DNA from: Magnetococcales bacterium
Lineage (GTDB): Bacteria > Pseudomonadota > Magnetococcia > Magnetococcales > DC0425bin3
Reading direction: 5' to 3'
DNA length: 43,275 bases
Assembly (NCBI GenBank): GCA_015228935.1
Contig: JADGCO010000031.1
Location: 1 to 43,275, forward strand
Part shown: piece by piece, positions 763 through 33,575 of the stretch
Position numbering within the stretch: position 1 is the stretch's first letter
How the letters are laid out: each line of letters begins with the position of its first letter
Notes under the pieces: model-generated
Seen by the model: only the letters and a program-made list of their open reading frames with translations
What the model was told of the DNA's origin: nothing
Databases searched by the model: none
Translations under genes and position numbers: made by a program

Positions 763-1541
763 GCCAGGACTCTGTCCTTGACTTGCCTGGGAGCCAGCCC
801 TATGGATTCTATTTTCAAAAAGCCCCTGCCCATGGCCGAAAAGGTGATGATGGCAAACCGTTTCAAGGTGGGCAAAAGATGTCTCCGTCGGAATTTTGGA
901 AGTTTGGCAAAGATGACTGTAACTCCCGTCAGCCAGCCAAACCCAAGAGGGAGTGCAAATGTTTATGTAAGTGAAAATAACTGTTAAATGCATAAATTGA
1001 ATGGTTTTTCTTAAAATTATTATTAAAATTATAAATAGTATGCTTATCTTAATTGAAAATCCAGCATGACCTATCCTAAGAAACCATATCAAATGCAATA
1101 ATATTGTTCAATTCAATTAATTGATATAGATGATTTTTATGTCTTAACAGCACTTTGTAAATGCGAATCCATTTTTCTTTCATCACGCACTTTGACCAGA
1201 ATAACAATAAACAATATTACTCATAACAGGCGCAATTTTTTATTACATGTCAAATAATAATTGGCACTGCTCTGCAAAAAGTCTATAGTGTCAGCTATGA
1301 ATGTCATTTCGGTCACCATGTGCGGTTTTTGGCATTAATTATTCGTAAAATATTGAAAATATGGAAAATATATGAACAATCCCCGAATGATTTGACCGGA
1401 TTGGCCCAAATCGTGATCAAGGCCAATGATTTGACATCATGCTTTTTTCACATCATCGCAGAGACATTTTTTTCCACTGACATGCTTCTCGGTCGCCAAC
1501 CCTGGGCCTTCAGGATTTAGCCGCATCTCACAGGATACACA
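763..1541. other. A+T-rich leader region of the island
   Basis: About 780 bases without a convincing gene. Positions 778-987 have an open frame of 69 codons and 1320-1520 one of 66 codons, but neither has a ribosome binding site or a recognisable product. The stretch 990-1300 is very A+T-rich. A good sigma70-type promoter sits at 1261-1289, which leaves an untranslated leader of roughly 245 bases before the first island gene. I see no integrase remnant on either strand. Confidence 0.5.
1261..1289 (+). promoter_or_regulatory. Sigma70-type promoter of the island operon
   Basis: A -35 box TTGGCA (1261-1266) and a -10 box TATAGT (1284-1289) each match the consensus at five of six positions and are spaced by exactly 17 bases. 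Transcription would start near 1296. It is the best promoter match seen upstream of the operon and points toward the gene at 1542. Confidence 0.55.
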
Positions 1542-2351
1542 ATGCCGAAAAATATACGACCACCAGATTCCTCAACCAACACTGGAAATCTTGACTTTAT
1601 TCTGCTGGGTGTTGGGATATTGCTTGTACTCGGTACTGTAATCATCACTTTCGTGAAACCCAATCCTACCCCCTATCAACAGACTGTTTTCCGAACACTG
1701 ATAGCCCTTGGCGCAGCAGCTTTCGCAGCCGCTCTACCTGGCTTTCTGAATGTGGACATGAGATTTAAAAGTAGCTTTGTCCGGGCTAGTGGTGCCCTTG
1801 GAGTTTTTGTGCTGGTTTATTTTTTCACCCCCGCCATTTCCCCAAGTGCAACTTGGCCACAGCATCCAGAAACCGAGGATGGCGTTCGCGTAGATCTGAA
1901 ATCAGCAGAAACCAAGACGAGTACTCCCTTTTCCACCGCTGCCGATATCGTTCGCGTAAATCAGAAGTCAGTAGATAATGGCTCTAGGAGTATCAATTAT
2001 GAGAAAGATACATTAAAATCGATAGATAGTAATGATTCTGGAGGAGATAACATCATATTAGCGGAATCCAATCAACAGCAAACAAGTTCTGGAGGAGAGA
2101 ATATTATATTAGAAAAACCTGCTCAACAGACTGTTTCCCAAACATGTATTGATTTCAATAAATATGAACTAAAGAAAAATGATTGCATAATAAATGGTTG
2201 GGATACGAAAATTGATGCCAATGGACCCGTTCCAAATGGAAACTGTGAAGCTAAAATAAATGAATTGAAGGAAGCAATCAGCAATGGAAATGAAGATAGA
2301 ATAAAACGCGCAATCATAGTCATGAAGTGTGCCAGATGTCCATGCAACTAA
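1542..2351 (+). CDS. Three-helix membrane protein with Cys-rich tail (island gene A)
   Basis: A 269-residue protein of unknown function, first gene of the island operon, with an AGGA box six bases before the ATG. Three membrane helices lie at about residues 19-38, 51-69 and 80-98. The block from QQTVFRTLIALGAAAF to ALPGFL, followed by GVFVLVYFFTPA, is a pattern I recall from other uncharacterised membrane proteins. With an inside N-terminus, the remaining 170 residues would be periplasmic. That tail has a low-complexity linker with duplicated phrases (VRVDLKSAE/VRVNQKSVD; SGGDNIIL/SGGENIIL) and then a compact end with six Cys (202, 215, 235, 263, 266, 268), likely disulfide-bonded. The stop is 13 bases before the next start. 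The topology is a prediction. Confidence 0.75.
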   Translation: MPKNIRPPDSSTNTGNLDFILLGVGILLVLGTVIITFVKPNPTPYQQTVFRTLIALGAAAFAAALPGFLNVDMRFKSSFVRASGALGVFVLVYFFTPAISPSATWPQHPETEDGVRVDLKSAETKTSTPFSTAADIVRVNQKSVDNGSRSINYEKDTLKSIDSNDSGGDNIILAESNQQQTSSGGENIILEKPAQQTVSQTCIDFNKYELKKNDCIINGWDTKIDANGPVPNGNCEAKINELKEAISNGNEDRIKRAIIVMKCARCPCN

Positions 2352-2364
2352 AAGGAGTCGTGTC

Positions 2365-2901
2365 ATGATGAATCCCAATATAAACACGAAACACACGGTC
2401 GCTGCAAAAGGTTTGAAATTGTTAAAAATAGAGGAAGTGAAATTCAAACGCGATCAACTTAAGCAAGTTCTGGTGATAGGTGTGGTGATACTGGGTGTTT
2501 CTTTTGCGCCCATCAAAGGGCATGCCCAAGAAATTTTTGTTCTTCAAGAACAATTTTCTGTTTGCAAAGTGAATTGCACACAATTTACGGCAAAGAATTG
2601 CGAAAACAAAAATGAGAGGGAAGTGATATCTTTGCCAATTAAAGATGCCAACAAGCTGACCGTGTCCGGTAGAGGTTTGGCAGAAGCCCAATCCGATAAC
2701 TCTCCCGGCCGAGTGACAATGGTGTTTGAAGGAGAGGATGGTAAAATTCTTGAAAGGGAGCAGGTGATTCCTGCCAAGTCAAGCAAGACCTTTTCTGTGA
2801 AGATGCCTTTGGCGAAAAAACAAAGTGGATCTTTGACTATCCATCTGCGTGTCAGTGACTGGTGTACATCCTTGGAAAGATTGAAAGTTGTACAGGAGTG
2901 A
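2365..2901 (+). CDS. Small secreted Cys-containing protein (island gene B)
   Basis: A 178-residue protein with no family I recognise. ATG 2365 has AGGAG seven bases upstream; a GTG at 2329 would overlap the previous gene and has no such site. A long basic N-region is followed by a hydrophobic stretch (about residues 34-50) and a plausible signal peptidase site after GHA (residue 54). The mature part contains CKVNCTQF (Cys 67 and 71), Cys 79 and Cys 167, and a beta-rich middle with VTMVFEGEDGKILER and LTIHLRVSDW, which looks like an immunoglobulin-like or other beta-sandwich domain, though that is a guess. The spacing C-x2-N-C-x2-F recurs in gene E of the same operon. Confidence 0.7.
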   Translation: MMNPNINTKHTVAAKGLKLLKIEEVKFKRDQLKQVLVIGVVILGVSFAPIKGHAQEIFVLQEQFSVCKVNCTQFTAKNCENKNEREVISLPIKDANKLTVSGRGLAEAQSDNSPGRVTMVFEGEDGKILEREQVIPAKSSKTFSVKMPLAKKQSGSLTIHLRVSDWCTSLERLKVVQE

Positions 2902-3007
2902 CATACGGAGGAAGTCAATATCGGAAGCTGACTCTTGTAAACCTGACTGGTTGATTAGTCAAGGATTTCGTCAGATCCAATGGACATGATTCGCTTCAGA
3001 AAAACCC

Positions 3008-3082
3008 GGGCATACGCCCAGGGACACGTCGTTGTTGTGAGCGACAAATCCCTGGGCAAACGCCCAAACCATCGTGTTTGGG
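3008..3082 (+). promoter_or_regulatory. Two overlapping hairpins in the leader of the channel gene
   Basis: An interrupted but symmetrical stem runs from 3008 to 3065. GGGC (3008-3011) pairs with GCCC (3062-3065), GCCCAGGGA (3016-3024) with TCCCTGGGC (3049-3057), and GTCG (3028-3031) with CGAC (3042-3045), with 4x4 and 3x3 internal loops and a 10-base apical loop. A second perfect 7-bp stem, CCCAAAC (3063-3069) with GTTTGGG (3076-3082), shares bases 3063-3065 with the first, so the outer pairs and the second stem exclude each other. There is no U-tract, so it is not an ordinary intrinsic terminator. It lies 52 bases before the start of the channel gene and could tune stability or read-through inside the operon. 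Confidence 0.6.
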
Positions 3083-3133
3083 TTCGGTGATTGGTTCAAT
3101 TCCTCTCAAAAAAGGAACACGGAGTACATCGGC

Positions 3134-4459
3134 ATGACAGCTACCTCTTCCCCGATAAACAGTCGGAAATTTGCCACAGTAGTGATCTTTTTATTCTTGC
3201 TATTGGGCATCCTCGGATTGTCATGGTCAGGAATCGTGTGCTACTATAATGTTAAGGCATCGTGGAACAATTTGATAGATGTCATTCATTTACCATCAAA
3301 TTCCAATACCGCAGATAAATTAAAAGAACAATTTGAAAATCCAAACGTAGTGAACCGGGAAAATGAATCCAAAGCCAATCTCCAATCAAAATCTCCGGAA
3401 ATAGAAATTCCCGAATTTTACAAAAAAATTGGCGTTGGGATTGCTTATCGCCTTGACCTTTCAGCGGTTTCCCCTTTACTTTTGATCTATTTTTTTGGGT
3501 CGATATTGGTCGGCTCGTGTTTGGTTCTGACCCAACACGCAGACTGGATACAGAAAATAAATTTGTTGCAGAAATGGTTAACGCAAAATCGATTTCCTTT
3601 TGTCCCTTCCTACCAATTCTACCTTATGCAATTCGGTTTATTGGGTACTATTATCGGTATGACCGAGGGGTACGCCACCCTCGCCCATACCGAGGACTCT
3701 CAGTCCATGATTGTTTCTCTGGGTGCTGCCTTTTACAGCACTTTGACTGCGATTGTAGTGGCTTATGTTTTTGGGCCACCCACAGGAATAATAATGAGGT
3801 GGACAATTAGCAACAGATCAGATTCTGGGAATATTCCAATCTACAACACTGAAACACGGGATTATATAATAAAAAATTTAGATTTATTATTAAAATTTGA
3901 TAAAATAGATATTATTGAACAAAACCAGAAGAAAATACAGACGGCTCTCACAAGTCTTGAGGAAAGATTTAATGAGGTTAATGTTATTTTTGGGGAAGTA
4001 ACACGTAAATTGTCCAGCCTCAGCAATATAACTGACACCATTGCCAAGCAGCAAGCAACAATGAAAATCGAACTTGGTGCGGAGGTCTCAAATCGAATAA
4101 CATCCCAGGAAGATCAAAATCAGAAAATTGGAGCTTTACGCCAAGGTGAAGATAATATAATTTATCAATTGAACGCCCTTCAGCTTACAGTAGATAAACA
4201 ATACGAGATTATTAATAAAGTTTTGAAGTCGGAGGAATATCTACGTTTAGGGGATACAATACTAAAAATCAGTGAACGAGAAAAAATAGAAAGCCAGATT
4301 GCTCAATTGCGTTCTAACCAGGAAAATCTGACCCTAACATTGAATAATGAACAAAATAAACTCAGAAAACTGATGCTTACACAGGTGGAAAATTTACGCA
4401 GTGAAGTTTATATTCTTTATACTCCTCCAAAAACGACACCAGACCAGAACTCTGAGTAA
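3134..4459 (+). CDS. ExbB/TolQ/MotA-type channel protein with coiled-coil tail (island gene C)
   Basis: A 441-residue inner-membrane protein. ATG 3134 has GGAG nine bases upstream; the longer GTG start at 3074 lies inside a hairpin. Four hydrophobic segments fall at about residues 14-36, 112-134, 160-178 and 192-214. The last two carry the MotA/TolQ/ExbB signature: FGLLGTIIGM (167-176), then SLGAAFYSTLTAIVVAYVFG (195-214). Proteins of this family form pentameric rings around an ExbD/TolR/MotB dimer and use proton flow to move it. Residues 240-425 are charged and strongly helical with heptad-like spacing, a long cytoplasmic tail as in ZorA of the Zorya defence system. The neighbour at 4499 supplies the partner. 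Family membership is clear; the role is inferred. Confidence 0.8.
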   Translation: MTATSSPINSRKFATVVIFLFLLLGILGLSWSGIVCYYNVKASWNNLIDVIHLPSNSNTADKLKEQFENPNVVNRENESKANLQSKSPEIEIPEFYKKIGVGIAYRLDLSAVSPLLLIYFFGSILVGSCLVLTQHADWIQKINLLQKWLTQNRFPFVPSYQFYLMQFGLLGTIIGMTEGYATLAHTEDSQSMIVSLGAAFYSTLTAIVVAYVFGPPTGIIMRWTISNRSDSGNIPIYNTETRDYIIKNLDLLLKFDKIDIIEQNQKKIQTALTSLEERFNEVNVIFGEVTRKLSSLSNITDTIAKQQATMKIELGAEVSNRITSQEDQNQKIGALRQGEDNIIYQLNALQLTVDKQYEIINKVLKSEEYLRLGDTILKISEREKIESQIAQLRSNQENLTLTLNNEQNKLRKLMLTQVENLRSEVYILYTPPKTTPDQNSE

Positions 4460-4461
4460 CG

Positions 4462-4490
4462 GGTGTGTCAAACACCTTTTGATTGAGGTG
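4462..4490 (+). promoter_or_regulatory. Alternative small stems covering the gene D ribosome binding site
   Basis: GGTGT (4462-4466) can pair with ACACC (4472-4476), while CACCT (4473-4477) can pair with AGGTG (4486-4490), which contains the likely TGAGG ribosome binding site of the gene at 4499. The stems share bases and exclude each other. They are short, so this is only a possible translational control point. Confidence 0.3.
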
Positions 4491-4498
4491 CCTACATT

Positions 4499-5422
4499 AT
4501 GAGCAAATTCGAGAACCAACATCCGATCCACAACAATCTCCAAAACCAAGGAGACGAGCAGGTCGATATAAACTCCACACTGGCACAGCTTATGCTGCAC
4601 TTGGTGGTCATCCTGACTCTTTTCTTTACCATCAAGGTGGAGCAAGAGAAAGTAAAACGCGAAGATGCTCAACGATTGTATTCCGAGACCAAAGATACCG
4701 TCCCAAATTCACAGTCTATTCTTAAAGAAAAAGCGGAAGCCATTGCTCTCGCTCGGGAAACACTCCTGGATAAGGCAATTGAACAAGTGACACGGGAAGA
4801 TTCTATCCATGATGAATTTAAACAGTTCAAAGACGGCTATCCAAAAGAACCGGAAATAATCATGGATAAAGACACATTTAGCGGAATCACCGACTTTTCC
4901 AAGACTCGCGATGCGGCTGAGCGTTTAAAACAAAAATTAACCGGCGATCCAAAAAAATACCACTTAAAGTTAACAGAACTCATCAAAGAGCGTTTTGCAC
5001 AGTTGGTTGAAAGTGGGAAGGAACATGTATTCCTAAAAGGAAAAGATAAAAATTTAAAGCTAATTAGCTCACTAACAAAAAATGATGAGAATAAAATATC
5101 AAAGAGCGTCGATTTATTTATTGACGATTTCCGAATAAAAGTTAAGAATGTCGAGCTTATATTTATAAGTTCGTGGGTTAATTCTGAAAAAGTCGATCAA
5201 GAATTTGACGACAAAATGGGACCGGAATTTAACCCTCTGTTTTTGAAGCCCAAGCCGATCCCTGAACAACATACCCCACACGAATCAATTCCAAATGTAT
5301 CAAATAATAAGATTCTTGGGTCTCGTTACCGTACAGCTACGCTAAAGCTTTTGCGAGACCGTTTGGATGATGCAGGATTTCCCCAAGTATCGTCAAGAGA
5401 TATTTGGCACTACACTCCGTAG
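4499..5422 (+). CDS. ExbD/TolR-like single-span partner lacking the usual Asp (island gene D)
   Basis: A 307-residue protein with a short cytoplasmic N-terminus, one membrane helix (about residues 26-45) and a large periplasmic part. The stretch DINSTLAQLMLHLVVILTL (23-41) lines up with the start of ExbD/TolR, which reads DIN-x-TP-x2-D-x-ML. DIN, T and ML are kept, but the proton-carrying Asp position is Leu and the residue before it is Gln. The middle is charged and helical. The end (about 265-305), SRYRTATLKLLRDRLDDAGF, resembles the last helix of OmpA/MotB peptidoglycan-binding domains, though weakly. The gene follows the channel gene by 39 bases, the arrangement of exbB-exbD and zorA-zorB. 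A stator-like partner is likely; whether it moves protons is doubtful. Confidence 0.65.
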   Translation: MSKFENQHPIHNNLQNQGDEQVDINSTLAQLMLHLVVILTLFFTIKVEQEKVKREDAQRLYSETKDTVPNSQSILKEKAEAIALARETLLDKAIEQVTREDSIHDEFKQFKDGYPKEPEIIMDKDTFSGITDFSKTRDAAERLKQKLTGDPKKYHLKLTELIKERFAQLVESGKEHVFLKGKDKNLKLISSLTKNDENKISKSVDLFIDDFRIKVKNVELIFISSWVNSEKVDQEFDDKMGPEFNPLFLKPKPIPEQHTPHESIPNVSNNKILGSRYRTATLKLLRDRLDDAGFPQVSSRDIWHYTP

Positions 5423-5433
5423 GAGATAACGTA

Positions 5434-7449
5434 ATGAATAACCGATGGCATTATGAGAATACACTCACCGTGGTATTGACTGTCTGCCTGGTCCTGGTTT
5501 TTCCTATCTCAATTTTTGGAGAAGAAGGGCTTAAGCATAAAGAAGTCAATATCGACCTGTCAGACTTGACAGCCAAGTCGCAAGATAGGCGATCCATTAA
5601 GCAAGCACTCAAGCTCCTTCCGGAACATCTAACCTCTGCTGAGGAATGGAAGGAACAAATGCTGAATTCACTTCAGGAACATCTGGACTTAAATAAAAGC
5701 ATGGAACTTATGAAAGAAAAAGAAAAATCTAAATTAGACATGGTTATTACCGGAATGCTCAAGCAATTTGCGTCCAATCAAACCGGTCTGAACCCTGACA
5801 CATGGCCCAAGGAGATGCTGGACAAAAACCAGAATACAATCAATGAAATCATCAAAAAAAGCCTGGATGGTGGATTCCTGACCAACTACACCGAGGGTCG
5901 GAATATGGCGGCAAAGCAACAGAGGGATGGATTGGAAAAGAGGTGCTTTGTCAAACCAGAGGAAGTTGAAAGCCTTGTTGACTTGATTTCTCGGGAAATA
6001 CCCAACCAGAAAGCAGCATCTTTGGTCGAACGTTTGCATCAGAAGGTACTGACAGAAAAACATTTGTTCAGGATGGAAGGGGATCCATTGAAGGATAACA
6101 TTCGAACCCAAATTGATAAAGAATTGGACCATATAAGGTGGCAAGAAAATTTCATCAAAGGATTCAAACCAATTTTTGGAAAATTTTCGGAAGAAATTTA
6201 CTCAAACATGGAACAAGAGCTAATAGACAAGGCAAAACAGCTTGAGAAAGGCAGCCCGCAGTGCCGGGGACAATCTGGATTTAGTCCTTATTCGGGTCTC
6301 AAAAAACTTATTGGCGAACAAGCTCAATCCTTGGAATGGAAAGCATTCCGCACTCATATCCTTGATGAGTTGGACTTGGAGAAACAATGCCCAGGCTTGC
6401 CAAGGAGTGAAATCATTTCAGCCTTGGACAAATCCTCCGATTGGCCCATGACCTTGTCAGCCCATTTAGAGGAACTTAATAATTCGTTTTCTGAAAAGGT
6501 TCGACAATCTTTGGTGAATAATTTCCTGACTGAAGAGAATACATATCGTCAAGCCCGTTCCAATCGATTGACAGAACGGATAATTCAAAGATCAAACTTG
6601 GAACACGAAGCCTTTACTAACAATTTACAGCGTTGCCTGCAAAATATCGTCGAGACTAAACGCAAAGAGCGAGCAGAAAATAATCTTAAGAGACGGTTTC
6701 CCGATATAGTCACAGGTATCTATGAGATTAAGGATGATAAAAAAGTAGACAATCTGGTCGAGAAATTTCAGAAAAAGATCGGCACATACGAGAATCTCGA
6801 GGATAATCAATTAGAGACCTTGGTCGGGGAGTTTCCATCCGACCTGCAACAAGTAAAAATTACGTTCCATTTGAATGAGGAGCGTGAATCATTCTCTCAG
6901 CATGCCAATAAGTTGGTTAGAGAAGCATTGAATACCTTTGGGAAACAAAAAAGTCTCGTCGAGACGACCATCCATGATGCTCCAAATGGGAATGTGTGCT
7001 ATGAACCTAAAGGTGGAGACAATGTAGTACTGTCACTGAAGGAACGAATAAGTAAATGTACTGATACTTTGACCCGGCAATGGAACAGCAACCACACCCG
7101 AAATAAATATGCCTACCTGTTCCCAAGTAACCGGAAACTGATTGAGAAACTGTTAGCCACAAAATCTGAAGCTCCTTCCGAGGTTATTCCAAAGACCCAG
7201 GAAGTAAACCAAGTCAATTCCAAGATTTCCGGCCCAGATCCCAGCGGTGGTGGTAAAGGCGGCAAAGGACATGGTGGTGGAAAAGGTGATGGTGAAGGTG
7301 ATGGTGAAGATGGTGGTGGTAGTGGTGGTAAATGCCCTCTAAACTGTATCGACTTCCTGAATGAGGTTATTGACAAAAAAAAGGTGCCAAATCAATGCAA
7401 AAAAGGGCTGACCAAAGAGTGCGTTAAAGCACTATCGACTATCAAGTGA
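5434..7449 (+). CDS. Large secreted helical protein with Gly-rich hinge (island gene E)
   Basis: A 671-residue protein of no family I recognise. ATG 5434 has AGGAG eight bases upstream, overlapping the stop of gene D. The first 30 or so residues form a signal peptide (TVVLTVCLVLVFPISIFG). The next 570 residues are almost entirely charged amphipathic helix with few Gly or Pro, consistent with an extended or coiled-coil rod in the periplasm. At about residues 601-633 comes a Gly/Lys/Asp linker built of short GGGKGGKG and GDGEGDGE units. A 40-residue end with four Cys follows, starting CPLNCIDF. The Cys motif echoes genes A (TCIDF) and B (CKVNCTQF). The stop overlaps the start of gene F by four bases, so the two are translationally coupled. 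Confidence 0.75.
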   Translation: MNNRWHYENTLTVVLTVCLVLVFPISIFGEEGLKHKEVNIDLSDLTAKSQDRRSIKQALKLLPEHLTSAEEWKEQMLNSLQEHLDLNKSMELMKEKEKSKLDMVITGMLKQFASNQTGLNPDTWPKEMLDKNQNTINEIIKKSLDGGFLTNYTEGRNMAAKQQRDGLEKRCFVKPEEVESLVDLISREIPNQKAASLVERLHQKVLTEKHLFRMEGDPLKDNIRTQIDKELDHIRWQENFIKGFKPIFGKFSEEIYSNMEQELIDKAKQLEKGSPQCRGQSGFSPYSGLKKLIGEQAQSLEWKAFRTHILDELDLEKQCPGLPRSEIISALDKSSDWPMTLSAHLEELNNSFSEKVRQSLVNNFLTEENTYRQARSNRLTERIIQRSNLEHEAFTNNLQRCLQNIVETKRKERAENNLKRRFPDIVTGIYEIKDDKKVDNLVEKFQKKIGTYENLEDNQLETLVGEFPSDLQQVKITFHLNEERESFSQHANKLVREALNTFGKQKSLVETTIHDAPNGNVCYEPKGGDNVVLSLKERISKCTDTLTRQWNSNHTRNKYAYLFPSNRKLIEKLLATKSEAPSEVIPKTQEVNQVNSKISGPDPSGGGKGGKGHGGGKGDGEGDGEDGGGSGGKCPLNCIDFLNEVIDKKKVPNQCKKGLTKECVKALSTIK

Positions 7450-8663
7450 GATCCATAATCATGCTCCTGCGCCGATACTTCATAGGATTTACTCTACTAT
7501 TAGGGGTCACAGGAACACTGACCATCCCAGGTATTGCTGCACCTCCCTTGGTAAACCCAGATCTAAAACAGATCCTGTCGATTTACGTTGAATCACAGTA
7601 CGTCGGATGTTGTGTGGCTTCTTGGGTCTATGAAGAGGCACGTATAACCCGCCTGCATGAAGCTGGATTCAAGTCGGCTCGTCGAATACATGTTCGAAAT
7701 AAAGTCGAGAATCATTCATGTTCGGAGGTTATTGCCCTGGGGCCATTCCCTACCTGGGAAGTAATCGATAAAATTGTTCTAACCTTGAGGAAAAAATCCC
7801 CCTGGAAAGAGTATAACCCCCGGAGAGGCGATATTATGTCACAACAGGAGTGGCAGGAATCCCAAATAATTTTTGGCAAGAGGTTGGAATGTATTCCAGT
7901 ACCCAAACCCGAACCCGAAACTGAACCCGACCCGCAGTTGTTCATCCATTTCGACCCAACCCTTATTCAAGCCACAGATAAAGATGGCGATAAACGAGAA
8001 ATCAAAATATCCAACCCTTATTGGTTGGGTCGTACAGAGACAACAGTAGTCCAATATGCCGCCTGCGTGAGTGCAGGAGTATGCCAACCCCCGGCTGAAA
8101 TTGGACTGGGATGTCACTGGCCAGGATACCAGGAACGACCTCGAGGGGGTTCTTATCCCATAAATTGTCTAACCCTGATGCAAATTCAGACCTTCATGGA
8201 ATGGTATTCCGCTCAATACCCAGGTCTGCACTTTCACTTGCCAACACCTGAGCAATGGCTGGGAGCCGCATTGGGTAAAAAATACATGGAGGATAAGGAT
8301 AAAAATGAGATTTGCCAGGATAAAAAAAGTCACCCCAATCTTTGTGACTCCTGTCCACCACCACCTCGCGTCCCCGGAAAAAACAATGGCTGGGCAGCCG
8401 GGGCTTCGGTTGATCGCGACTCTAAATGTCTCACCAACGGTTTGGTTGATATGGTGGGTAACGTGGCCGAATTGGTACAAGGATCAGACAATTCCCTCAA
8501 GCTAATGGGTGGAGGATGGCGCACTCCTATCATACATAAACTCTCACTTGCCACATTGGAAATGTTGGAAAAGCCGCTGTCTGAAAATGAGAAACTTCCC
8601 CTGCACAAAATATCATGGGCAGGCTTTCGCATGGCGGTTGACCGCATCCAGAGATCAAAATGA
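7446..8663 (+). CDS. Secreted SPOR-like / SUMF1-fold protein (island gene F)
   Basis: A 405-residue exported protein. GTG 7446 overlaps the previous stop; ATG 7461 is the alternative start. A signal peptide ends near GIAA (residue 32). Residues 43-115 resemble a SPOR domain, which binds bare peptidoglycan strands: a first strand, a helix with LHEAGF, then IALGPFPTWEVIDKIVLTL. A Pro/Glu linker (151-164) leads to a SUMF1 (formylglycine-generating enzyme) domain at about 188-400, shown by GRTETTVVQYAACV, SYPINCLT, LPTPEQWLGAA, GLVDMVGNVAELVQG, GGGW and WAGFRM. The Cys pair that makes true formylglycine-generating enzymes active is missing from the last segment, so the fold is more likely used for binding. 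It is the last gene of the operon. SUMF1 is sure; SPOR is fairly likely. Confidence 0.82.
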   Translation: MRSIIMLLRRYFIGFTLLLGVTGTLTIPGIAAPPLVNPDLKQILSIYVESQYVGCCVASWVYEEARITRLHEAGFKSARRIHVRNKVENHSCSEVIALGPFPTWEVIDKIVLTLRKKSPWKEYNPRRGDIMSQQEWQESQIIFGKRLECIPVPKPEPETEPDPQLFIHFDPTLIQATDKDGDKREIKISNPYWLGRTETTVVQYAACVSAGVCQPPAEIGLGCHWPGYQERPRGGSYPINCLTLMQIQTFMEWYSAQYPGLHFHLPTPEQWLGAALGKKYMEDKDKNEICQDKKSHPNLCDSCPPPPRVPGKNNGWAAGASVDRDSKCLTNGLVDMVGNVAELVQGSDNSLKLMGGGWRTPIIHKLSLATLEMLEKPLSENEKLPLHKISWAGFRMAVDRIQRSK

Positions 8664-8749: not shown

Positions 8750-8784
8750 GTGGATTGCCTGCGGGAAGATTGTCCCAACAGGTC
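8750..8784. repeat. Right copy of 35-bp direct repeat (attR-like)
   Basis: Identical over 35 bases to 724-758 (the fur 3' end). Read in the fur frame it gives VDCLREDCPNR, then TCA TGA, so it still encodes a complete Fur C-terminus. The frame stays open upstream for about 20 codons (RFVTRSYRID), loosely like a diverged Fur end, though this may be chance. The right edge touches the stop codon of the minus-strand higA. Confidence 0.8.
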
Positions 8785-9112
8785 ATGAAATTGAAACCCT
8801 ATCCATCGTCTCCGGCTGGTACTTTCGGATAATCGTGCGCTTGATTTCCTCGCCAAACTGCTCGGATGCAAGATCAAGCTCATAACTTTTTTGCAGGTTC
8901 ATCCAGAAAGCGGCTTCTACCCCAAGCCATTGTTCAAGACGCAAAGCCGTGTCAGCAGTCATGGCCCGTTTACCGGCAATGAGCTGGTAAATCCGATTGG
9001 ATGGTACGTGGATGTGTCGTGCCAATTCGGCGGACGTTACTCCAATCTCGGCCAATTCATCGGCCAGGATTTTACCTGGATGAATCGGGTAAATGGGTCG
9101 TTTCTCGATCAT
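8783..9112 (-). CDS. higA: HigA-family antitoxin (XRE helix-turn-helix)
   Basis: A 109-residue antitoxin of the HigA/VapI type, which represses its own promoter and neutralises a HigB RNase. It begins with IHPGKILADELAEIGV, the usual HigA opening, followed by the helix-turn-helix (SAELARHIHVPSNRIYQL, then GKRAMTADTALRLEQWLG) and the FWMNLQKSYELDLA segment typical of the family. The start at 9112 has a perfect AGGAGG five bases upstream. The toxin partner that should lie just upstream survives only as a C-terminal fragment, so this is an orphan antitoxin. The stop overlaps the right 35-bp repeat by two bases. Confidence 0.88.
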   Translation of the reverse strand: MIEKRPIYPIHPGKILADELAEIGVTSAELARHIHVPSNRIYQLIAGKRAMTADTALRLEQWLGVEAAFWMNLQKSYELDLASEQFGEEIKRTIIRKYQPETMDRVSIS

Positions 9113-9122
9113 AGTGCCTCCT

Positions 9123-9267: not shown

Positions 9268-10770
9268 TCAAGACGCTTCCGTATGGGCCTGGGGATTCTG
9301 CCCGCCGGCCCTGCCGGATGGATTGGTGAATTGATCGTTCAGGTTCTGGACGTAGCTGTCGGCATCTTTCAGGACGTTGTGGATCATTTTTTCGGTCCGG
9401 CCACCCCACCCGGTTGGCGTCAGGGTGAGCAGGGAACGAAGCGGTCGGGTATTGAGGGCAAAGGCCCGGGTCAGAAAATCGCGAATGTCGGGCTTTTGAA
9501 TGTCCCGCAGGGTATTGGTCAGGGTCAGGCGCGCCGCATATTTGCGCACGAACATGTGGACCGATCCCAATACACCCAGAATGGCCAACGCCAACGCAAC
9601 CACCCCAACCTGTTGCATGCCCCAGGCCCCTGACGACCAGTCCAGAAGCAGCAGAGAACCCAGCCAGGTACCCATGGAAGCCGATGCCCCCTGGGCGGCA
9701 AAGGAATAAACCCCCAAAACTCCCAGGATGGCCAACAGGATGGCATCCGTGATCAGGACATTTTTGCGCCAGTTGCGCAACATGTCCCGCATCCGGGGCA
9801 CAACTTCCATTTCGATCACCTTGGCCGTATGGTCCAGCACACCGATGATGCGATAGGCCCGCTCAATCTCGACCCGGTTGATTCTCTGGACAATTTCATC
9901 CATGTCTTCATCCCGTTTGGCCTCATAACGGGCCTTCAGGGTGGCATCGGCAATGGGATGGGCACTCTCGGGATTGTAGATCTGGTAGAAACGCCCGGCG
10001 GTCAAACCCGACTGGGCCAAGGCCCGCTGCCAGGCCGCCACCACCTCTTCAAGATTGTCCTCGCGGACCGTGCAATCGACCTGGTTCAGAATAAACAGAA
10101 ACTTGTTGGAGTCATGGCGGTTGATCGTCTTGGCCACCAGATGGTCCAGGGTATCCCGCATGGCCCCGGGTTCTGGATGGCGGGCGTCGAAAAAGACCAT
10201 GACCAGATCGGAAAGGTTGATGATGTGATCGGTGATGCGCAAAGTGGAGGTGCGTTGGGCATCGGCATCAAAACCGGGCGAATCGATCATGATCCGCCCT
10301 CGCAGCTTTTCGGTGGGGCAGGTCTTGAGTTGCAGATAGGCATCGATGCGCCGCCCTTCACCGGAAACAACCTGTTCAATCTCGTGGCTGATCTGGTAAA
10401 AAGGAAACCGGGGATCGGCATCCAGGGCCAGACCGGGCAGGGTGTGAATCTTGTCCTCGTTGCTGAAACAGATGACCGTGAACTTGTCGTCCACCGCCTG
10501 GTTGCCGGTACGTTGCAGGGGCAATTCCAGAAAATGATTGATGAAAGTCGATTTTCCGGCACTGAAGGTCCCCAGGACCGAAATCAGGGGCCACCAGGGT
10601 ACCCGTGTGGCAAAAGACTCCTCGCGGCTGAGGATGCCCATCCGATAGGCAACCCAATCAAGTTCCCGAAAACTTTGTACCACCTTCAGCAGGATGGGAT
10701 TTTCCTCCTTCAGGTGTTTTTCCAGGCTGTTGAGCCGGCGATCAATCTGGCTGGTGTTGCTTGTTGACAT
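9268..10770 (-). CDS. Dynamin-like membrane GTPase
   Basis: A 500-residue GTPase of the dynamin/EHD-like superfamily. ATG 10770 has GGAG seven or so bases upstream; longer frames lack a site. G1 is GTFSAGKST (67-75), G3 is DSPG (163-166) and G4 is NQVD (229-232). After the GTPase domain comes a helical region, then two or three hydrophobic segments at about 345-430 (ILLAILGVLGVYSFAA and VVALALAILGVLGSVHMF) that would insert in the inner membrane. Such proteins remodel or protect membranes, but the specific role is unknown. It is divergent from gltA and convergent with nothing; the stop lies close to the hairpin at 9219. Confidence 0.82.
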   Translation of the reverse strand: MSTSNTSQIDRRLNSLEKHLKEENPILLKVVQSFRELDWVAYRMGILSREESFATRVPWWPLISVLGTFSAGKSTFINHFLELPLQRTGNQAVDDKFTVICFSNEDKIHTLPGLALDADPRFPFYQISHEIEQVVSGEGRRIDAYLQLKTCPTEKLRGRIMIDSPGFDADAQRTSTLRITDHIINLSDLVMVFFDARHPEPGAMRDTLDHLVAKTINRHDSNKFLFILNQVDCTVREDNLEEVVAAWQRALAQSGLTAGRFYQIYNPESAHPIADATLKARYEAKRDEDMDEIVQRINRVEIERAYRIIGVLDHTAKVIEMEVVPRMRDMLRNWRKNVLITDAILLAILGVLGVYSFAAQGASASMGTWLGSLLLLDWSSGAWGMQQVGVVALALAILGVLGSVHMFVRKYAARLTLTNTLRDIQKPDIRDFLTRAFALNTRPLRSLLTLTPTGWGGRTEKMIHNVLKDADSYVQNLNDQFTNPSGRAGGQNPQAHTEAS

Positions 10771-10820
10771 GAAGGTCTCCACAGGTCCAGGGGAAAACGG
10801 TGCGGGATGCAAACCTTTTC

Positions 10821-10829
10821 TGGTATAAC
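10821..10829 (+). promoter_or_regulatory. Extended -10 element upstream of gltA
   Basis: TGG followed by TATAAC (10824-10829) is an extended -10 match (TGn plus five of six). It lies about 75 bases before the gltA start. No clear -35 box accompanies it, as is usual for extended -10 promoters. Confidence 0.35.
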
Positions 10830-10903
10830 CTAAACGGTATGTGGAACTCAATTGGTCTAGGTTCGGTACGTATCTCTATTTGGAATAAATTTGGAGTGAC
10901 GCC

Positions 10904-23246: not shown

Positions 23247-24170
23247 TTATCTTTTTTTCCACCAAGGCTTGTCATCTTTTTTATCGTGCTTGCTGACAAG
23301 ATATAAATTGGTATCACCGTATAATTTTAATGGGATCAATTTTGAATCCGAACTTAATCTGGTGGCAAAACCTATAAATATATACAATATCTCCCTTTCA
23401 TTAACAAGTATACTACGATGGTAAATGTGGTTCCCCAGCAACAACGGCGTTTTATTGAATTCCATAATAAAAGCAACATCTTCAATACCATCTCCATTAA
23501 AATCTGAACGAAGTAAATCCGTAATGATTGCTACATGATGAAATACTGATTTTATATATGTTATATACTCGTATATCAAATAATTTCCCTTGATGCTGCT
23601 TTTTATACTGACATTTGTTAAAAATCTATTTTTAACAAGAGCATCCCAAATTTTTGCTGGGGGAGTAAAATTATATAATATTTCGTCCTTATATTGAGGA
23701 AATATTAACTTATCAGAAAATAAATCAGGAGTTATATGAATAGGTTGGTCTGGGAGAAATGATTTTTCTGGTTTTTTACCTTTTGCAGATCCTAATACCA
23801 GCAAACATCTTGCTAATTTAGAACATGGAGATATTCCTGTCCGTGTATTCTTCGTTATTAATCTATAATTTTCGGAAGAAATACTATTATTTACATATTC
23901 TTCCGTTAATATTTTCCCGTCTACTCCCCATAAATCGCTACATTTTATTATTTTCTCTTTTCCTTGACTATAATTAATTTCTGATAGAGAGCTAATCATA
24001 TCTATAATCTGCAATCTACTTAGATTTTTATCAAATTTTTTTCCATCTACAGTGAGTTTTTCTGAAACTAATGTATCATATAGAATAAACTCTTTAATAT
24101 TCTCGCTATAGATAGGCTTAACTAGAATAACACATATAAGAAATAGGAGCATGATCTGAAAAATATTCAT
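23247..24170 (-). CDS. Secreted protein with FG-GAP-like DxNGDG motif, unknown function
   Basis: A 307-residue protein of unknown family in strongly A+T-rich DNA that contrasts with the rnc gene next to it. ATG 24170 has AGGGGA about seven bases upstream. A signal peptide is clear (IFQIMLLFLICVILVKPIYS). Near residue 220-230, DFNGDGIEDVAFIMEF matches the calcium-binding DxNxDG loop of FG-GAP/VCBS-type repeats; only one copy is seen. Base composition suggests recent acquisition. It is downstream of the muramidase gene on the same strand, 62 bases away, so the two may be cotranscribed. Confidence 0.65.
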   Translation of the reverse strand: MNIFQIMLLFLICVILVKPIYSENIKEFILYDTLVSEKLTVDGKKFDKNLSRLQIIDMISSLSEINYSQGKEKIIKCSDLWGVDGKILTEEYVNNSISSENYRLITKNTRTGISPCSKLARCLLVLGSAKGKKPEKSFLPDQPIHITPDLFSDKLIFPQYKDEILYNFTPPAKIWDALVKNRFLTNVSIKSSIKGNYLIYEYITYIKSVFHHVAIITDLLRSDFNGDGIEDVAFIMEFNKTPLLLGNHIYHRSILVNEREILYIFIGFATRLSSDSKLIPLKLYGDTNLYLVSKHDKKDDKPWWKKR

Positions 24171-24232
24171 TGTTGTCCCCTTTATGAAATAGGCACCCTC
24201 TTGCATTACAGCAAAAGGGTGCCATGCTTGAT

Positions 24233-25846
24233 TTATTGATCATTAATCCTACGTCGCATCTTATCGAATCGATTTTTCCATCCTTGCCAGTTACCCTCCT
24301 GATTTCTACCAAAAGTCGCTAACTGAGTACCAATATAAAACCTTTCATCATAGAGACATTTCATCACATTTTCTGAATCTCTATTTTCCTCAGCTTTTTT
24401 GATCGCATGAAGAGTTTCATCGCTCATTCTACCATTTACAGGCACTCTGTATCCCTGAGAATTAAGCGCTTCTTGCAAGGCTTTCATGCCACCTGAATTG
24501 CCATGATGAGTTGCAGCATCGAAGATTTGCTCTCTCATTTTATGATTCTCTACTTGTTCAAGTTTCAACCCTTCCCAGATATGCTTGCGATAAAAAACCT
24601 TCGCTTTCTCTTCGTCGATGTTGCCCACATCATTCAGCGTGACTTCTCTGTCACCTCTCAGCCCCAACTCATTCAAACCTTCTCTATCATTATTCATGAC
24701 CAGCCTTTTTCTCAGGTCTTCCAGAGTACCCTTGGTTACACCATAGTTCGTGCCATCTCCTCGATCATTTGCACGATTGGTATAACCATCCCCACCCTCA
24801 TTTTCAATGACAGTCAACTGGAAGCAGGAATCGAAACTTGCGCGATTTCTCTGTTCCCTCAGCTCCCGCTCATTTGCAGCATTACCCCCCTCGGAAGCAG
24901 CACGTTGACCTGAAGCTGATGGACTCTCTATCGTTCTTTCTCGAACGACAGGTGACGGCGTTGGGACTGATGGCCAATCCTCAGGAACGGGTGTTGGTTC
25001 TGGTGTCGGTTCTGGTGTTGGTTCTGGTGTCGGCGACGGTGTTTCATGATTCCAGGCTTCATCCCAGGGAGATTCATCTGTTGTTGGCCAGGATACAGCC
25101 TCTGCTTCACCACCGGAGTCGTCCTGGATCATATCATTTTGACTGCGCATCTGCAATGAATCTCGATGCCTGGAGGGGGGCATAAAACGAGATGCGTAAA
25201 GACCGTTGGGAAAAACAAACGGAACTCTGGTATTTTCATCAGGCCACTGCTGGGAAGTCATGACCGGCGAAAACATATTTTCCGAGAGCGTTTGCACAGG
25301 ATTGATTTTTTTCATCTGGAGACCTGCTGAACTCTCTTCTGTTCTCTTGCGGGCAGGGGTCGGGTTCAGGCCTGATTGTACAAATGGTCGTGGTTGTGCC
25401 CATGATGAATCCTCATGCCGTGACTGAGTCAAATCAGCACCGGCATGCAGCGGTGGCACGGTTGTGGCATTGGGCAGTGCAGGTTGCTGATACAGTTTTT
25501 TGAACTCGTTGATCATTTTGCCATATTTTTGGTTGAAAGGGCCAATATTGGCAAATTCCTGATCGATTTGTGCAACCTGATCCCAGTTTTTCATCTGCCG
25601 GGCATTTTCCTGGTCTCGCCGCCTGGCACCCAGTTGTCCAGGATTGTTCGTGAGTTGGGATGGCACATAGTCTGGGGGCGGCAATTGGTCCTTGCCAAGA
25701 ATATTTCCCAGTCCCATGTGCAGTCGCCATGAGGCCACGTTTTGGCCAAAATCATCTTTTTGTTTTTGAATCTGCTGCATTCCTTGCCAGAGTTTGGTGG
25801 CAGCCCAGGGATTCATGGCATGGTCATCATCATCGCGAAAGCTCAT
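24233..25846 (-). CDS. GH108-like muramidase with proline-rich linker
   Basis: A 537-residue protein started at ATG 25846, which has GGAG six bases upstream. The first 270 residues are polar and Gln-rich with no known domain. A linker of PTPE repeats follows (about residues 273-288). The C-terminal 165 residues resemble glycoside hydrolase family 108 (N-acetylmuramidase/secretion activator): VIENEGGDGYTNRANDRGD then TNYGVTKGTL, with the Glu of ENEGG in the catalytic position, and a closing segment like the associated peptidoglycan-binding region (MKALQEALNSQGYRVPVNGRMSDETL). No signal peptide is seen. It could be phage-derived or a cargo of a specialised export system. Confidence 0.7.
   Translation of the reverse strand: MSFRDDDDHAMNPWAATKLWQGMQQIQKQKDDFGQNVASWRLHMGLGNILGKDQLPPPDYVPSQLTNNPGQLGARRRDQENARQMKNWDQVAQIDQEFANIGPFNQKYGKMINEFKKLYQQPALPNATTVPPLHAGADLTQSRHEDSSWAQPRPFVQSGLNPTPARKRTEESSAGLQMKKINPVQTLSENMFSPVMTSQQWPDENTRVPFVFPNGLYASRFMPPSRHRDSLQMRSQNDMIQDDSGGEAEAVSWPTTDESPWDEAWNHETPSPTPEPTPEPTPEPTPVPEDWPSVPTPSPVVRERTIESPSASGQRAASEGGNAANERELREQRNRASFDSCFQLTVIENEGGDGYTNRANDRGDGTNYGVTKGTLEDLRKRLVMNNDREGLNELGLRGDREVTLNDVGNIDEEKAKVFYRKHIWEGLKLEQVENHKMREQIFDAATHHGNSGGMKALQEALNSQGYRVPVNGRMSDETLHAIKKAEENRDSENVMKCLYDERFYIGTQLATFGRNQEGNWQGWKNRFDKMRRRINDQ
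24984..25031. repeat. Four 12-bp tandem units encoding the Pro-rich linker
   Basis: Units of GGTTCTGGTGTC/T in tandem (first unit imperfect), read on the minus strand as PTPE repeats. Such in-frame repeats can change in number by slippage and so vary linker length. Confidence 0.8.
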
Positions 25847-26225
25847 TTTTCTCTCCAATTGCATGGATGGTTGGTCATCAAACACAATAAAAATCTGCCA
25901 GACACTGCGGAAATTTTCCGTAGCGAACTCCTCGAACAATATAATCCTTCAATAATCTTCGAAGGATCTAAACAAAAAACCCTCCGGGAAATCCCGGAGG
26001 GTTTATGAGCCAGCACGGATCTGATTTACATCTGGATTCCACGATCAAGGCATGTGAACCCAGGGAACGGGGCGGAGCGTTACCAGATCGCTGGCAACAC
26101 AAGGCCCATTCTGGTGTCAAACTAACCCGATTTTGCGCCCCCCATCAAGGGGGAAAATAATCTTACGAAGATTTTTTTGAAGGCATGATCCGCCTTTGGG
26201 TTCAAGAATCGCATGGATAACTCAC
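25847..26225. other. Intergenic region upstream of the muramidase gene
   Basis: About 380 bases without a supported gene. It holds an inverted repeat ATCCTTC/GAAGGAT (25944-25950 and 25961-25967), a strong terminator (25974-26004), a CCCCC/GGGGG hairpin near 26139-26153, and a short AATCTT-acg-AAGATT stem with seven Ts (26159-26178). The remainder shows no recognisable RNA or coding signal. Confidence 0.5.
25974..26004 (-). terminator. Intrinsic terminator on the minus strand
   Basis: AAACCCTCCGGG (25977-25988) pairs with CCCGGAGGGTTT (25993-26004) over 12 bp around an AAAT loop. Reading the minus strand, the stem is followed by six Ts (complement of 25974-25979). It would end transcription of the DUF2283/DUF4258 pair before the muramidase gene. 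Confidence 0.75.
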
Positions 26226-30881: not shown

Positions 30882-33275
30882 TCAATAAGATGCCACTTTT
30901 GCCTGAATCCCGGTTTCATTGGCAACACGAACCTGCGCCTGTTCGGCCTCGGCCAGGTTTTGATAGGGACCGGAGCGCACTCTCTGGAAATTCTTGCCGT
31001 TCACATCGGCACTTTCCTGGAAGGCGGGCAGACCACTTTTGGTCACCTTTTGATGGAGTTCATTGGCGTTGGCCTTGTCGGTGAAGGCTCCCAGTTCCAG
31101 GTAGAAATTTCCCCGGACGGCACTGCTGCCACCCGCAGCCATGGCGGTTTGTTGCGGAACGGGTGCGGTATTCTGTTGGGTTTGCGGTGTCCCGCCGGAG
31201 GCCGGATGCGGCGGCAGTTCAACAGGGGATTGCACACCACCCGGGGCACGGGATTCAGGCACCGCCGGCAACAAATCCCCGCCTCCAACCACCCCACCCG
31301 CATGACCCATGCCACCACCACCTTGTTTACTGAAATCCAGGTAGGGACCCGGGCGGGAGGCATTCATGGCCGCCTCGGGCGACCGGAGAATCTGCGGACG
31401 TTGCCCGGGCGTGATCCGCCCCACTTCCGGTGCCTTTTCCGTCCCCTCTTCGGGGGGGGGTGCCAGGGCCGGCGTGATTTTTTGCACAATGGGCGTCGAA
31501 ACAACCCCTCCCCCGCCGGCAAAATTCACCCCGCCCGCACCAGCCCTGCCCCGCCGTCCGGAGACCACAATCGGGCGCAGAAAAATGACAAGTTCGGTCT
31601 TGGTGATTTGATCATCGGTGTATTTGAACATGTTGCCCAACACCGGCAAATCCTGCAAGCCCGGCACACCCGAGGTGGTTTTGTCCATCTTGTCCTGCAT
31701 CAACCCCCCCATCACGGCCACCTGACCACTGTGAACCCGCAACATGGACTCCATCTCCCGGACGCGAATCTCGGGAATGAGATTGGGGGATTCCACGCCG
31801 GTCAACGTGTTGCCCCGCACGAGACCCGGGTTGGGATCGTTGACCCAGCGGCTGATGCTGGAAATGGTGGGCCGGACATTCATGCTGACCACATCATTGG
31901 CATCGATCTGCGGCGTCACACTCATGACCAGACCCACCGGAACCGTGTGAATCTGGGTGTTGTACATCGGTGAATTGTGTTGGGTCGTCCCGGTCAGGGA
32001 GACAGTCGTGTTGCCACCCTGCGATGGCTGGGCACTCAGGGAAAAATATATTTTGTTTTCCACCACCTTGAGGATGGCGGTTTGATTGTTCAGGGCCATG
32101 ATCTTGGGGCTGGACAGCACCTTGACATTGCCAAACTGCCCAAGGGCACGCACCGTGGCCGCCACGGTACTGTTTCCGCCACTGCCGCTGCTCTTGATGG
32201 GCAAGGAAAAAAACGGCATGCCGGCCCCGTTTCCGGAGTTATCCTTCCATTGCGAGCCATAATTGACCGCATCGGTGACCAGGCGACCCGCCGCATTCAG
32301 GATACCCGCCGGGGTATTGGTCAGGTTGACCCAGTCCACCCCTCCCTGATACCGATCATTCAATTCCACTTCAACCACGGTCGATTCGATCAAAACCTGC
32401 CGATGCACATTTTCCAACACCCGGTCCAGGAGTTCCCTGATCTGGGCATGCTGTGACGTGGTGGCAAAGATGGTCAAAACCCCCGCTTCCTGATTGATGG
32501 AGACGATGCCCGGCTTCTGGTTGCCATCCTGACCATCGGCACGGTTTTCTTCCTGGGCAAGGCGTTTCTGATTCTGGCTCAAGACCGATTGAATGCTGCG
32601 GGTCAAGGAGTCCCAGAACTGGTTTTTGGACCGGTTGACCATCCGGGTTTCCGACTGGTTGGAATCCACTCCCATGGCTTCTTTACGATTCCGCCTGCCA
32701 CCATCGAGCTGCGACGAAATATTGATGGAACTCTCCGTCCCGCGATCCAGGTTGACATAATCGACCTGATACATGCGCATGAAAGGCCGATCCGGGGAGA
32801 TGATGATCACATTGTCGCGAATCTGGTAACGCACATTGGCCTGTTTGGCCACCCGGCTCATGATCTGCGGCAAGGTCTGGTTGACGGCACTCAGGGTGAT
32901 GCGGGCATTGATGCCGGGATAGATATCCACATTCATTTTGGCATCGCGGGCCAATCCGACCACAAAATCCCGCACCGGCATCTGGCTCACCGAAATGGTA
33001 TACAGTTCGCCCCCGCGTTTGTCGTCCATCTCGTCCATGTCCGAACGGACTTCATCGTCACCAGCCGCAGAGGGACCCGTGCGCTCTTCGAAGGTGGATT
33101 CCGGCGGATGGGTCGGCTGGAGGTAATGTTCCTTGCTCGGCATCAGCGCAGATTTGTGGCCACAACCGGCCAACAAAGTACACGCCGCCAGAATCCCCAG
33201 CCAAACGGGGCCGGTTCTGCCCGCCAGCTTCTGCTCTTGAGCCGACCTTGTCTCTTGCCGCTTCATCCACGTCAT
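30882..33275 (-). CDS. mshL: MshL-like secretin lipoprotein with C-terminal SPOR domain
   Basis: A 797-residue outer-membrane secretin of the type IV pilus/MSHA branch. ATG 33275 puts the lipoprotein signal (LGILAACTLLAGC) near the N-terminus; longer frames do not. An N-terminal domain (ISVSQMPVRDFVVGLARDAK) is followed by the MshL-style Secretin_N region and the secretin core from about residue 300 (RQVLIESTVVEVELNDRYQG) to 560 (MGGLMQDKMDKTTSGVPGL). A Pro/Gly-rich linker leads to a SPOR domain in the last 75 residues (YLELGAFTDKANANELHQKV then FQRVRSGPYQNLAEAEQAQ). SPOR binds septal, denuded glycan. The rest of an msh cluster is not in the window. Confidence 0.88.
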   Translation of the reverse strand: MTWMKRQETRSAQEQKLAGRTGPVWLGILAACTLLAGCGHKSALMPSKEHYLQPTHPPESTFEERTGPSAAGDDEVRSDMDEMDDKRGGELYTISVSQMPVRDFVVGLARDAKMNVDIYPGINARITLSAVNQTLPQIMSRVAKQANVRYQIRDNVIIISPDRPFMRMYQVDYVNLDRGTESSINISSQLDGGRRNRKEAMGVDSNQSETRMVNRSKNQFWDSLTRSIQSVLSQNQKRLAQEENRADGQDGNQKPGIVSINQEAGVLTIFATTSQHAQIRELLDRVLENVHRQVLIESTVVEVELNDRYQGGVDWVNLTNTPAGILNAAGRLVTDAVNYGSQWKDNSGNGAGMPFFSLPIKSSGSGGNSTVAATVRALGQFGNVKVLSSPKIMALNNQTAILKVVENKIYFSLSAQPSQGGNTTVSLTGTTQHNSPMYNTQIHTVPVGLVMSVTPQIDANDVVSMNVRPTISSISRWVNDPNPGLVRGNTLTGVESPNLIPEIRVREMESMLRVHSGQVAVMGGLMQDKMDKTTSGVPGLQDLPVLGNMFKYTDDQITKTELVIFLRPIVVSGRRGRAGAGGVNFAGGGGVVSTPIVQKITPALAPPPEEGTEKAPEVGRITPGQRPQILRSPEAAMNASRPGPYLDFSKQGGGGMGHAGGVVGGGDLLPAVPESRAPGGVQSPVELPPHPASGGTPQTQQNTAPVPQQTAMAAGGSSAVRGNFYLELGAFTDKANANELHQKVTKSGLPAFQESADVNGKNFQRVRSGPYQNLAEAEQAQVRVANETGIQAKVASY

Positions 33276-33575
33276 CGCACCAGCCACCTTGCCGTCAAGA
33301 GATTGACCACTCCTGACCACAACCCGTTGCTTGCCAGCAGAACAGATTGATTTCAGGATTGAAAATCTAAAACCCGGATTTGACCCGCAGGTCATGTCCC
33401 GGCATGACCCTGAAGACAGCAATAGATGGACCAATGGTGAAAAAACAATCCGTTACGTTGTTGACAGGCCACCTTTGCGAACCTGGTGTTCTGCCATATA
33501 TTCCAACCTGCCACCATGGGTGGTTATTCATTGCTTTATTCTGTCGATTTCTTTCACCTGATGGGTTAACATTTC
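33276..33575. other. Intergenic region between the secretin and higBA
   Basis: Three hundred bases separate two divergent genes. A TTGACA box at 33461-33466 points toward higB but lacks a good -10 at the right distance. No other signal or gene is seen. Confidence 0.4.

Follow-up and report, generated by a model that had tools for sequence, protein, structure and literature searches.

A six-gene cluster in a Magnetococcales bacterium with a divergent MotA_ExbB-family channel and exported proteins: a possible envelope motor

The gene cluster

Six long open reading frames (ORFs), here called genes A to F, lie in one direction on the forward strand at 1542-8663 of a Magnetococcales contig (JADGCO010000031.1). 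The window is the whole stretch of DNA that was analysed, 43,275 nucleotides in length. The features of the cluster, with the observations that define them, are the following.

1261-1289, + strand: promoter candidate, a sigma-70-like hexamer pair TTGGCA-17-TATAGT (consensus match alone)
1542-2351, + strand: gene A, 269 aa (ORF, hydropathy, PHROG match, related three-TM protein at locus L010)
2368-2901, + strand: gene B, 177 aa, small, with an N-terminal signal or anchor segment, four cysteines and no family (ORF, hydropathy)
3008-3065, + strand: hairpin in the gap between B and C, with 24-nt arms and a 10-nt loop (repeat search; fold of the gap)
3134-4459, + strand: gene C, 441 aa, four-TM channel of the MotA_ExbB family with a heptad-repeat tail (PF01618, TM3-TM4 alignment, heptad periodicity)
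4499-5422, + strand: gene D, 307 aa, one TM, remainder predicted to be mostly periplasmic (hydropathy; hhalign)
5434-7449, + strand: gene E, 671 aa, exported, no family (ORF, hydropathy, periodicity)
7461-8663, + strand: gene F, 400 aa, exported, C-terminal FGE-sulfatase/SUMF1 fold (PF03781; fold matches)

The six co-directional genes are thus present at about the positions originally predicted. Alternative GTG starts are found at 3074 for gene C and at 7446 for gene F, and from their longest starts C to F encode 461, 307, 681 and 405 aa. When 200 regions with matching composition were simulated, the longest stop-free run reached at most 244 aa (median 139), and since all four reading frames are longer than this maximum, they are not chance ORFs. 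The membrane segments and signal peptides of the original prediction were also recovered: three TMs in A, four in C and one in D, and, for each of B, E and F, a hydrophobic N-terminus that is either a signal peptide or an anchor.

The cluster had been described as one operon with short gaps and one promoter. Its genes are co-directional and the gaps from C to F are short (C-D 39, D-E 11 and E-F 11 bases; A-B 16), but B and C are separated by 232 bases that contain the hairpin (arms at 3008-3031 and 3042-3065; fold z −2.1 for the whole gap). A four-base spacing between most genes was not found, as the single four-base overlap is that of E and F, and only when F starts at GTG 7446. The long B-C gap with its strong hairpin indicates that AB may be transcribed separately from CDEF, and the hairpin itself is a possible terminator, attenuator or mobile palindrome. 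Its sequence has no second copy within the window, and other loci carrying it were rejected as independent occurrences because they are copies of the same place. A 17-base piece of the 3008-3065 palindrome is also present in four IMG/VR contigs (L133-L136). The hexamer pair at 1261-1289 does exist as a promoter candidate, but such pairs are no commoner in the region than in shuffled sequence (20 against 17.4).

Genes A to F have a GC content of 38-48%, compared with 52-58% in those flanking housekeeping genes that were sampled, namely fur, gltA, ilvB and lepA. At third codon positions the values are 0.34-0.45 for A to F (0.38-0.45 for C to F) and 0.65-0.72 for the sampled neighbours. Being AT-rich relative to the flanking housekeeping genes, A to F look acquired, and the GC3 contrast points to a shared foreign origin of C to F. 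An empty-site check was made in a genus mate, where the flanking genes were not found in the 400 kb looked at.

Genes A and B

Protein A has three membrane segments at residues about 12-104, followed by a soluble tail with six cysteines, in agreement with the predicted membrane protein with a Cys-rich tail. Residues 16-98 match phrog_5814 (PHROG, E 2.5e-17), although A lacks the N-terminal soluble part of this module and carries its own six-Cys tail. Modules of the phrog_5814 type occur in 5 of 398 genomes of the phylum. In those neighbourhoods that were read, they are surrounded by other small genes, some of them mobile-looking, with no evident motor genes as judged by eye and by hydropathy. 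The related three-TM protein at L010 adjoins a secreted Cys/Gly-rich protein. The membrane part of A is a sparse, mobile-looking accessory module. At another locus (L089, 9551-10369), a protein with an A-like N-terminal three-TM layout is found among small same-strand genes, in a gene run that includes two near-identical transposase-like pairs; this setting suggests that the A-type three-TM module is mobile cargo. Protein B is the small secreted protein that had been described, with 177 aa and a hydrophobic N-terminus (signal peptide or anchor), and it matched no family in the libraries scanned.

The channel protein C

Protein C matches PF01618 (MotA_ExbB) with 25.7 bits, above the Pfam curated cut-off of 22.9, and with 27 bits in the genome search. 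It is the weakest of the five MotA_ExbB genes in its genome, the other four being a TolQ (beside TolR), an ExbB (beside ExbD and a receptor) and two of the MotA type. Four membrane segments are predicted by hydropathy, with TM3 placed from the alignment with MotA. In local alignments, the TM3-TM4 region aligns best to the MotA-type proteins of the same genome (score 76; none of 300 shuffles as good), and when C is set against MotA and ExbB-type segments in small alignments, residues G168, G171, T172, G175, A199 and T203 do not vary. The Gly-Thr in TM3 and the Thr in TM4, which are conserved in the family, are both kept. By these comparisons, C is a divergent MotA_ExbB member, closest to MotA in TM3-TM4. 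The last 217 residues, a tail of ~220 aa, show a strong heptad periodicity that none of 500 shuffles equalled, a pattern consistent with a coiled coil. The ExbB/TolQ/MotA-type channel with a long tail was thus correctly recognized.

In the flagellar stator protein MotA, TM2 and TM3 are separated by a large cytoplasmic domain, and a proline stands just before TM3; C has neither. Because its TM2-TM3 loop is ~25 residues long and the proline has no counterpart (alignment read by eye), C is not a flagellar stator. It resembles instead the generic ion transporters, the 'GIT' class of the MotA/TolQ/ExbB proteins (PMC12505986), in its TM3-TM4 core, its long C-terminal extension and the single-pass gene directly after it, and that scheme would class it as a generic ion transporter extended at the C-terminus. 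One difference lies in the partner, as the likeness of D to ExbD is only marginal and the Asp is missing where the two align.

The candidate partner D

Protein D had been described as an ExbD/TolR-like partner. Its single N-terminal TM, its position next to C and a marginal likeness agree with this description, whereas Pfam, including PF02472 (ExbD), gave no match even at E 10, and the two ExbD matches in its own genome are other genes. In an hhalign comparison of D with 28 ExbD/TolR sequences from the class, 2 of 100 shuffles scored as high. Its N-terminus, 'VDINST-LAQLMLHLVVIL', is in register with 'SEINVTPMVDIMLVLLIIF' of TolR/ExbD (2 of 100 shuffles with equal score), and in this weak alignment of the xINxxPxxD motif region the ion-carrying Asp of ExbD/TolR is aligned to Gln30. 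A single-sequence structure model of D was unusable (pLDDT 39). Since two shuffles were as good and the Asp is replaced by Gln30, D can be called a possible B subunit but not an established one. It does follow C directly, as B subunits follow A subunits, which speaks for a motor.

With the ExbD Asp missing, ion use by C and D is not established. Should the alignment be correct, another residue would have to serve in ion use, namely Asp23 of D, at the membrane edge, His34 of D or Glu178 of C; otherwise, the pair would be non-conducting. In that case, C and D would act as a structural anchor or as a scaffold for signalling, having given up the use of ion flow, and the Gln30 in place of the Asp and the absent pre-TM3 proline of MotA are both in line with this. 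However, C has kept the Gly-Thr and TM4 Thr positions, the three residues named could substitute for the Asp, and the D alignment is itself weak, so a non-conducting pair is considered improbable. An ion-driven pump or rotor is the favoured reading of C and D.

The exported proteins E and F

Protein E had been pictured as a secreted helical rod with a Gly hinge. It has a predicted export signal and a charged body poor in Pro and Gly; a stretch rich in Gly begins at residue 600, and the C-terminus bears Cys. Its helical (heptad) periodicity is only mild. The rod with a hinge is a fair description rather than a result. Pfam, NCBIfam and PADLOC scans gave no family for E, and its PHROG lines were at E 0.05 or weaker. 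A 'CIDF' tail common to A and E was attributed to chance (p 0.46).

Active FGE enzymes carry a catalytic Cys pair downstream of a GGSW-type motif. Protein F matches PF03781 (FGE-sulfatase) with 35.8 bits over a cut-off of 23.3, the domain occupying its C-terminal 240 aa, and the predicted SUMF1-fold head of an exported protein was thereby confirmed. The core was well predicted in an AlphaFold model built on an alignment with 20 FGE sequences of the class, and in Foldseek the model matched PvdO, EgtB, FGE and Treponema TvpA, with PorK chains at rank 21 and lower. Compared with the FGE-sulfatase/PvdO/TvpA fold, F is without the first strand motif of the domain and has a Cys-bearing insert. The motif GGGW stands at about 350-353 and there is no cysteine past residue 323; F is thus probably non-catalytic and probably not an active formylglycine-generating enzyme or oxidase. 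In other bacterial systems, FGE/C-type-lectin folds are used as domains that bind ligands (PMC7159879). No lipobox was seen on reading the sequence of F. The SPOR-like domain described for F fared less well: its N-terminal 120 aa have a weak half-domain likeness to SPOR profiles (the 'GPF' half only), which none of 100 shuffles equalled, but Pfam SPOR (PF05036) gave no match at E 10. The SPOR-like N-terminus is thus suggestive only.

Recurrence in other genomes

No relatives of C were found in 150 related genomes, in 398 genomes across the phylum, in IMG/VR viral contigs or in plasmids, nor in two short-pattern scans of ~85,000 species genomes. The second of these scans used one 9-residue pattern, relaxed by three made-up motif variants, and was not exhaustive, with 597 stretches seen. 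Other phyla were reached by pattern scans alone, and distant relatives may exist outside Pseudomonadota. In the genomes searched, C has diverged too far from the MotA/TolQ/ExbB family for a match at BLAST level. Two matches to C at E about 0.007 among the 398 phylum genomes were rejected as noise. Relatives of E were likewise not found in the class, the phylum sample, viral contigs or plasmids; weak matches to E in class and phylum genomes were rejected as noise, consisting of short, mostly Gly-rich or stop-bearing stretches. For D, plasmids and viral contigs were the places searched, and no relatives were found there. In viral contigs, pattern scans for A, C, D, E and F found nothing. The relatives of F that were found are generic FGE proteins; the nearest (locus L017) adjoins heme d1/nitrite-type genes and the other lies on a 3 kb contig.

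Recurrence of A to F together in other genomes, on which the original prediction had staked itself, was therefore not observed, no relatives of C or E being present in the samples. As none of C, D and E has relatives in the places searched, co-inheritance of A to F cannot be shown. The main rival explanation takes the genes as chance neighbours in an AT-rich island, in which a divergent MotA/ExbB homologue, an FGE-fold protein and orphan exported genes do not act together. It fits with the lack of a recurring set in the genomes, plasmids and viral contigs searched, and with the A module, which is sparse and has other neighbours elsewhere. In addition, the genome itself holds 27 FGE-sulfatase and 29 SPOR matches, both families being abundant across the class, and FGE domains that common make F beside C less surprising. 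C to F, however, share one strand, spacings of 39, 11 and 11 bases, an orientation of every product towards the envelope and a foreign composition, and chance neighbourhood is accordingly rated unlikely, though it deserves serious weight.

Comparison with known systems

Ion-driven ring motors supply the power for nutrient uptake, envelope stability, swimming, gliding and secretion, and Zorya defence. Models of known systems were taken from the Pfam, NCBIfam, PADLOC and PHROG libraries, and those for Zorya, T9SS/gliding, Ton/Tol and flagellar stators gave no convincing match, in keeping with the claim that the cluster corresponds to no known system. Among the six proteins, there was no Pfam match to TonB, TolA, a TonB-dependent receptor or Pal, and the true TolQR and ExbBD pairs lie elsewhere in the genome.

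The channel and partner resemble ZorAB of Zorya, which combines a MotA-like channel bearing a long cytoplasmic tail with a single-pass partner. A Zorya-like anti-phage system, with such a channel and a cell-wall-anchored partner, would account for the long coiled-coil-like tail of C, as ZorA has a long tail, and for the small accessory and mobile-looking genes that adjoin the A module in other genomes. However, C, D and F match no PADLOC Zorya model, and the only ZorA-type line (ZorA3 for E, E 0.58) is noise. There are no ZorC/D/E-type genes and no cytosolic nuclease or helicase among A to F, E and F are exported unlike in Zorya, and the surroundings consist mostly of housekeeping genes. A defence system of this kind is thus very unlikely.

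In the T9SS/gliding machines, GldL is a two-TM protein, whereas C is of the four-TM MotA type. None of the six proteins matched the NCBIfam gliding/T9SS families (GldK/L/M/N), F matches FGE and PvdO above PorK and has no lipobox, and translocon genes are absent from A to F. A very divergent machine of this type, with a GldL/GldM motor and a GldK-like SUMF1 track protein, is for these reasons highly improbable. The likeness to GldKLMN consists of a motor-type gene near an active-site-less SUMF1-fold protein, an extended periplasmic protein and several cysteines in E and F. In T9SS/gliding, GldK works together with a motor driven by protons, and its relative GldJ is described as a SUMF1 homologue without an active site (PMC9127263); GldK forms disulfide links to client proteins (PMC12635249). 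The C/D pair beside F would belong to the same composition class, a membrane motor pair with an extended periplasmic protein and an inactive SUMF1 fold, a likeness that is unproven and is not one of homology.

Proposed function

The preferred reading, which is held tentatively and at a little under an even chance, is that C to F make up an orphan envelope machine, probably gained by horizontal transfer, with a generic-ion-transporter (MotA/TolQ/ExbB-like) motor as its core and A and B as accessories. We infer a complex of the four proteins, its energy coupling, the part of D as partner, the ligand of F and the physiological output. C would be the membrane ring, with its long coiled-coil tail in the cytoplasm, and D its single-pass central partner, whose periplasmic part would be moved by the motor. 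E would act as a long strut or transmission in the periplasm. F would be the periplasmic binding head, its probably non-catalytic FGE (C-type-lectin-like) fold recognising an envelope or surface ligand and its SPOR-like N-terminus perhaps binding glycan. A and B would form a separate or accessory membrane/secreted pair.

Of the original prediction of a motor- or stator-like machine reaching through the periplasm, the channel C and the secreted SUMF1 fold of F are upheld. The partner role of D, which is marginal, the SPOR domain and the single operon were overstated, and the membrane part of A belongs to a different module. In favour of the motor, the D anchor and the hydrophobic N-termini of E and F would place the bodies of these proteins in the periplasm. 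Against it stand the lack of co-occurrence in the searched samples, the marginal D, the absence of a family for E, the weak SPOR likeness and the commonness of FGE domains in the genome. A stronger version holds that C to F represent a class of trans-envelope PMF motor not described before. Here the MotA-type channel, with its coiled-coil tail in the cytoplasm, would drive a rod in the periplasm together with a non-catalytic head of the SUMF1 fold, convergent with the T9SS/gliding machine and not descended from it; we consider this improbable. If the motor reading is true, a further motor lineage whose periplasmic train differs would extend the range of tasks known for the ring motor, and it would show a ring motor paired for a second time with a dead SUMF1 fold, the first case being Bacteroidota gliding. 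The case comes from one genome, and its value is that of a lead to a plausible new motor system, not of an established system.

Neighbouring genes in the window

Directly downstream of F, a HigA-like antitoxin frame and a dynamin-family GTPase are found at 8783-9115 (− strand) and 9268-10851 (− strand), respectively, and a similar HigA-like frame is present at another locus (L088). A second AT-rich patch, at 23247-25939 (− strand), contains a GH108/peptidoglycan-binding lysozyme-like protein with 47% GC, beside which lies a 319-aa reading frame of 30% GC without assignment. Further along, at 30882-33434 (− strand), an 850-aa secretin with an STN and a C-terminal SPOR domain is encoded, which is probably a pilus or type II-like outer-membrane channel.
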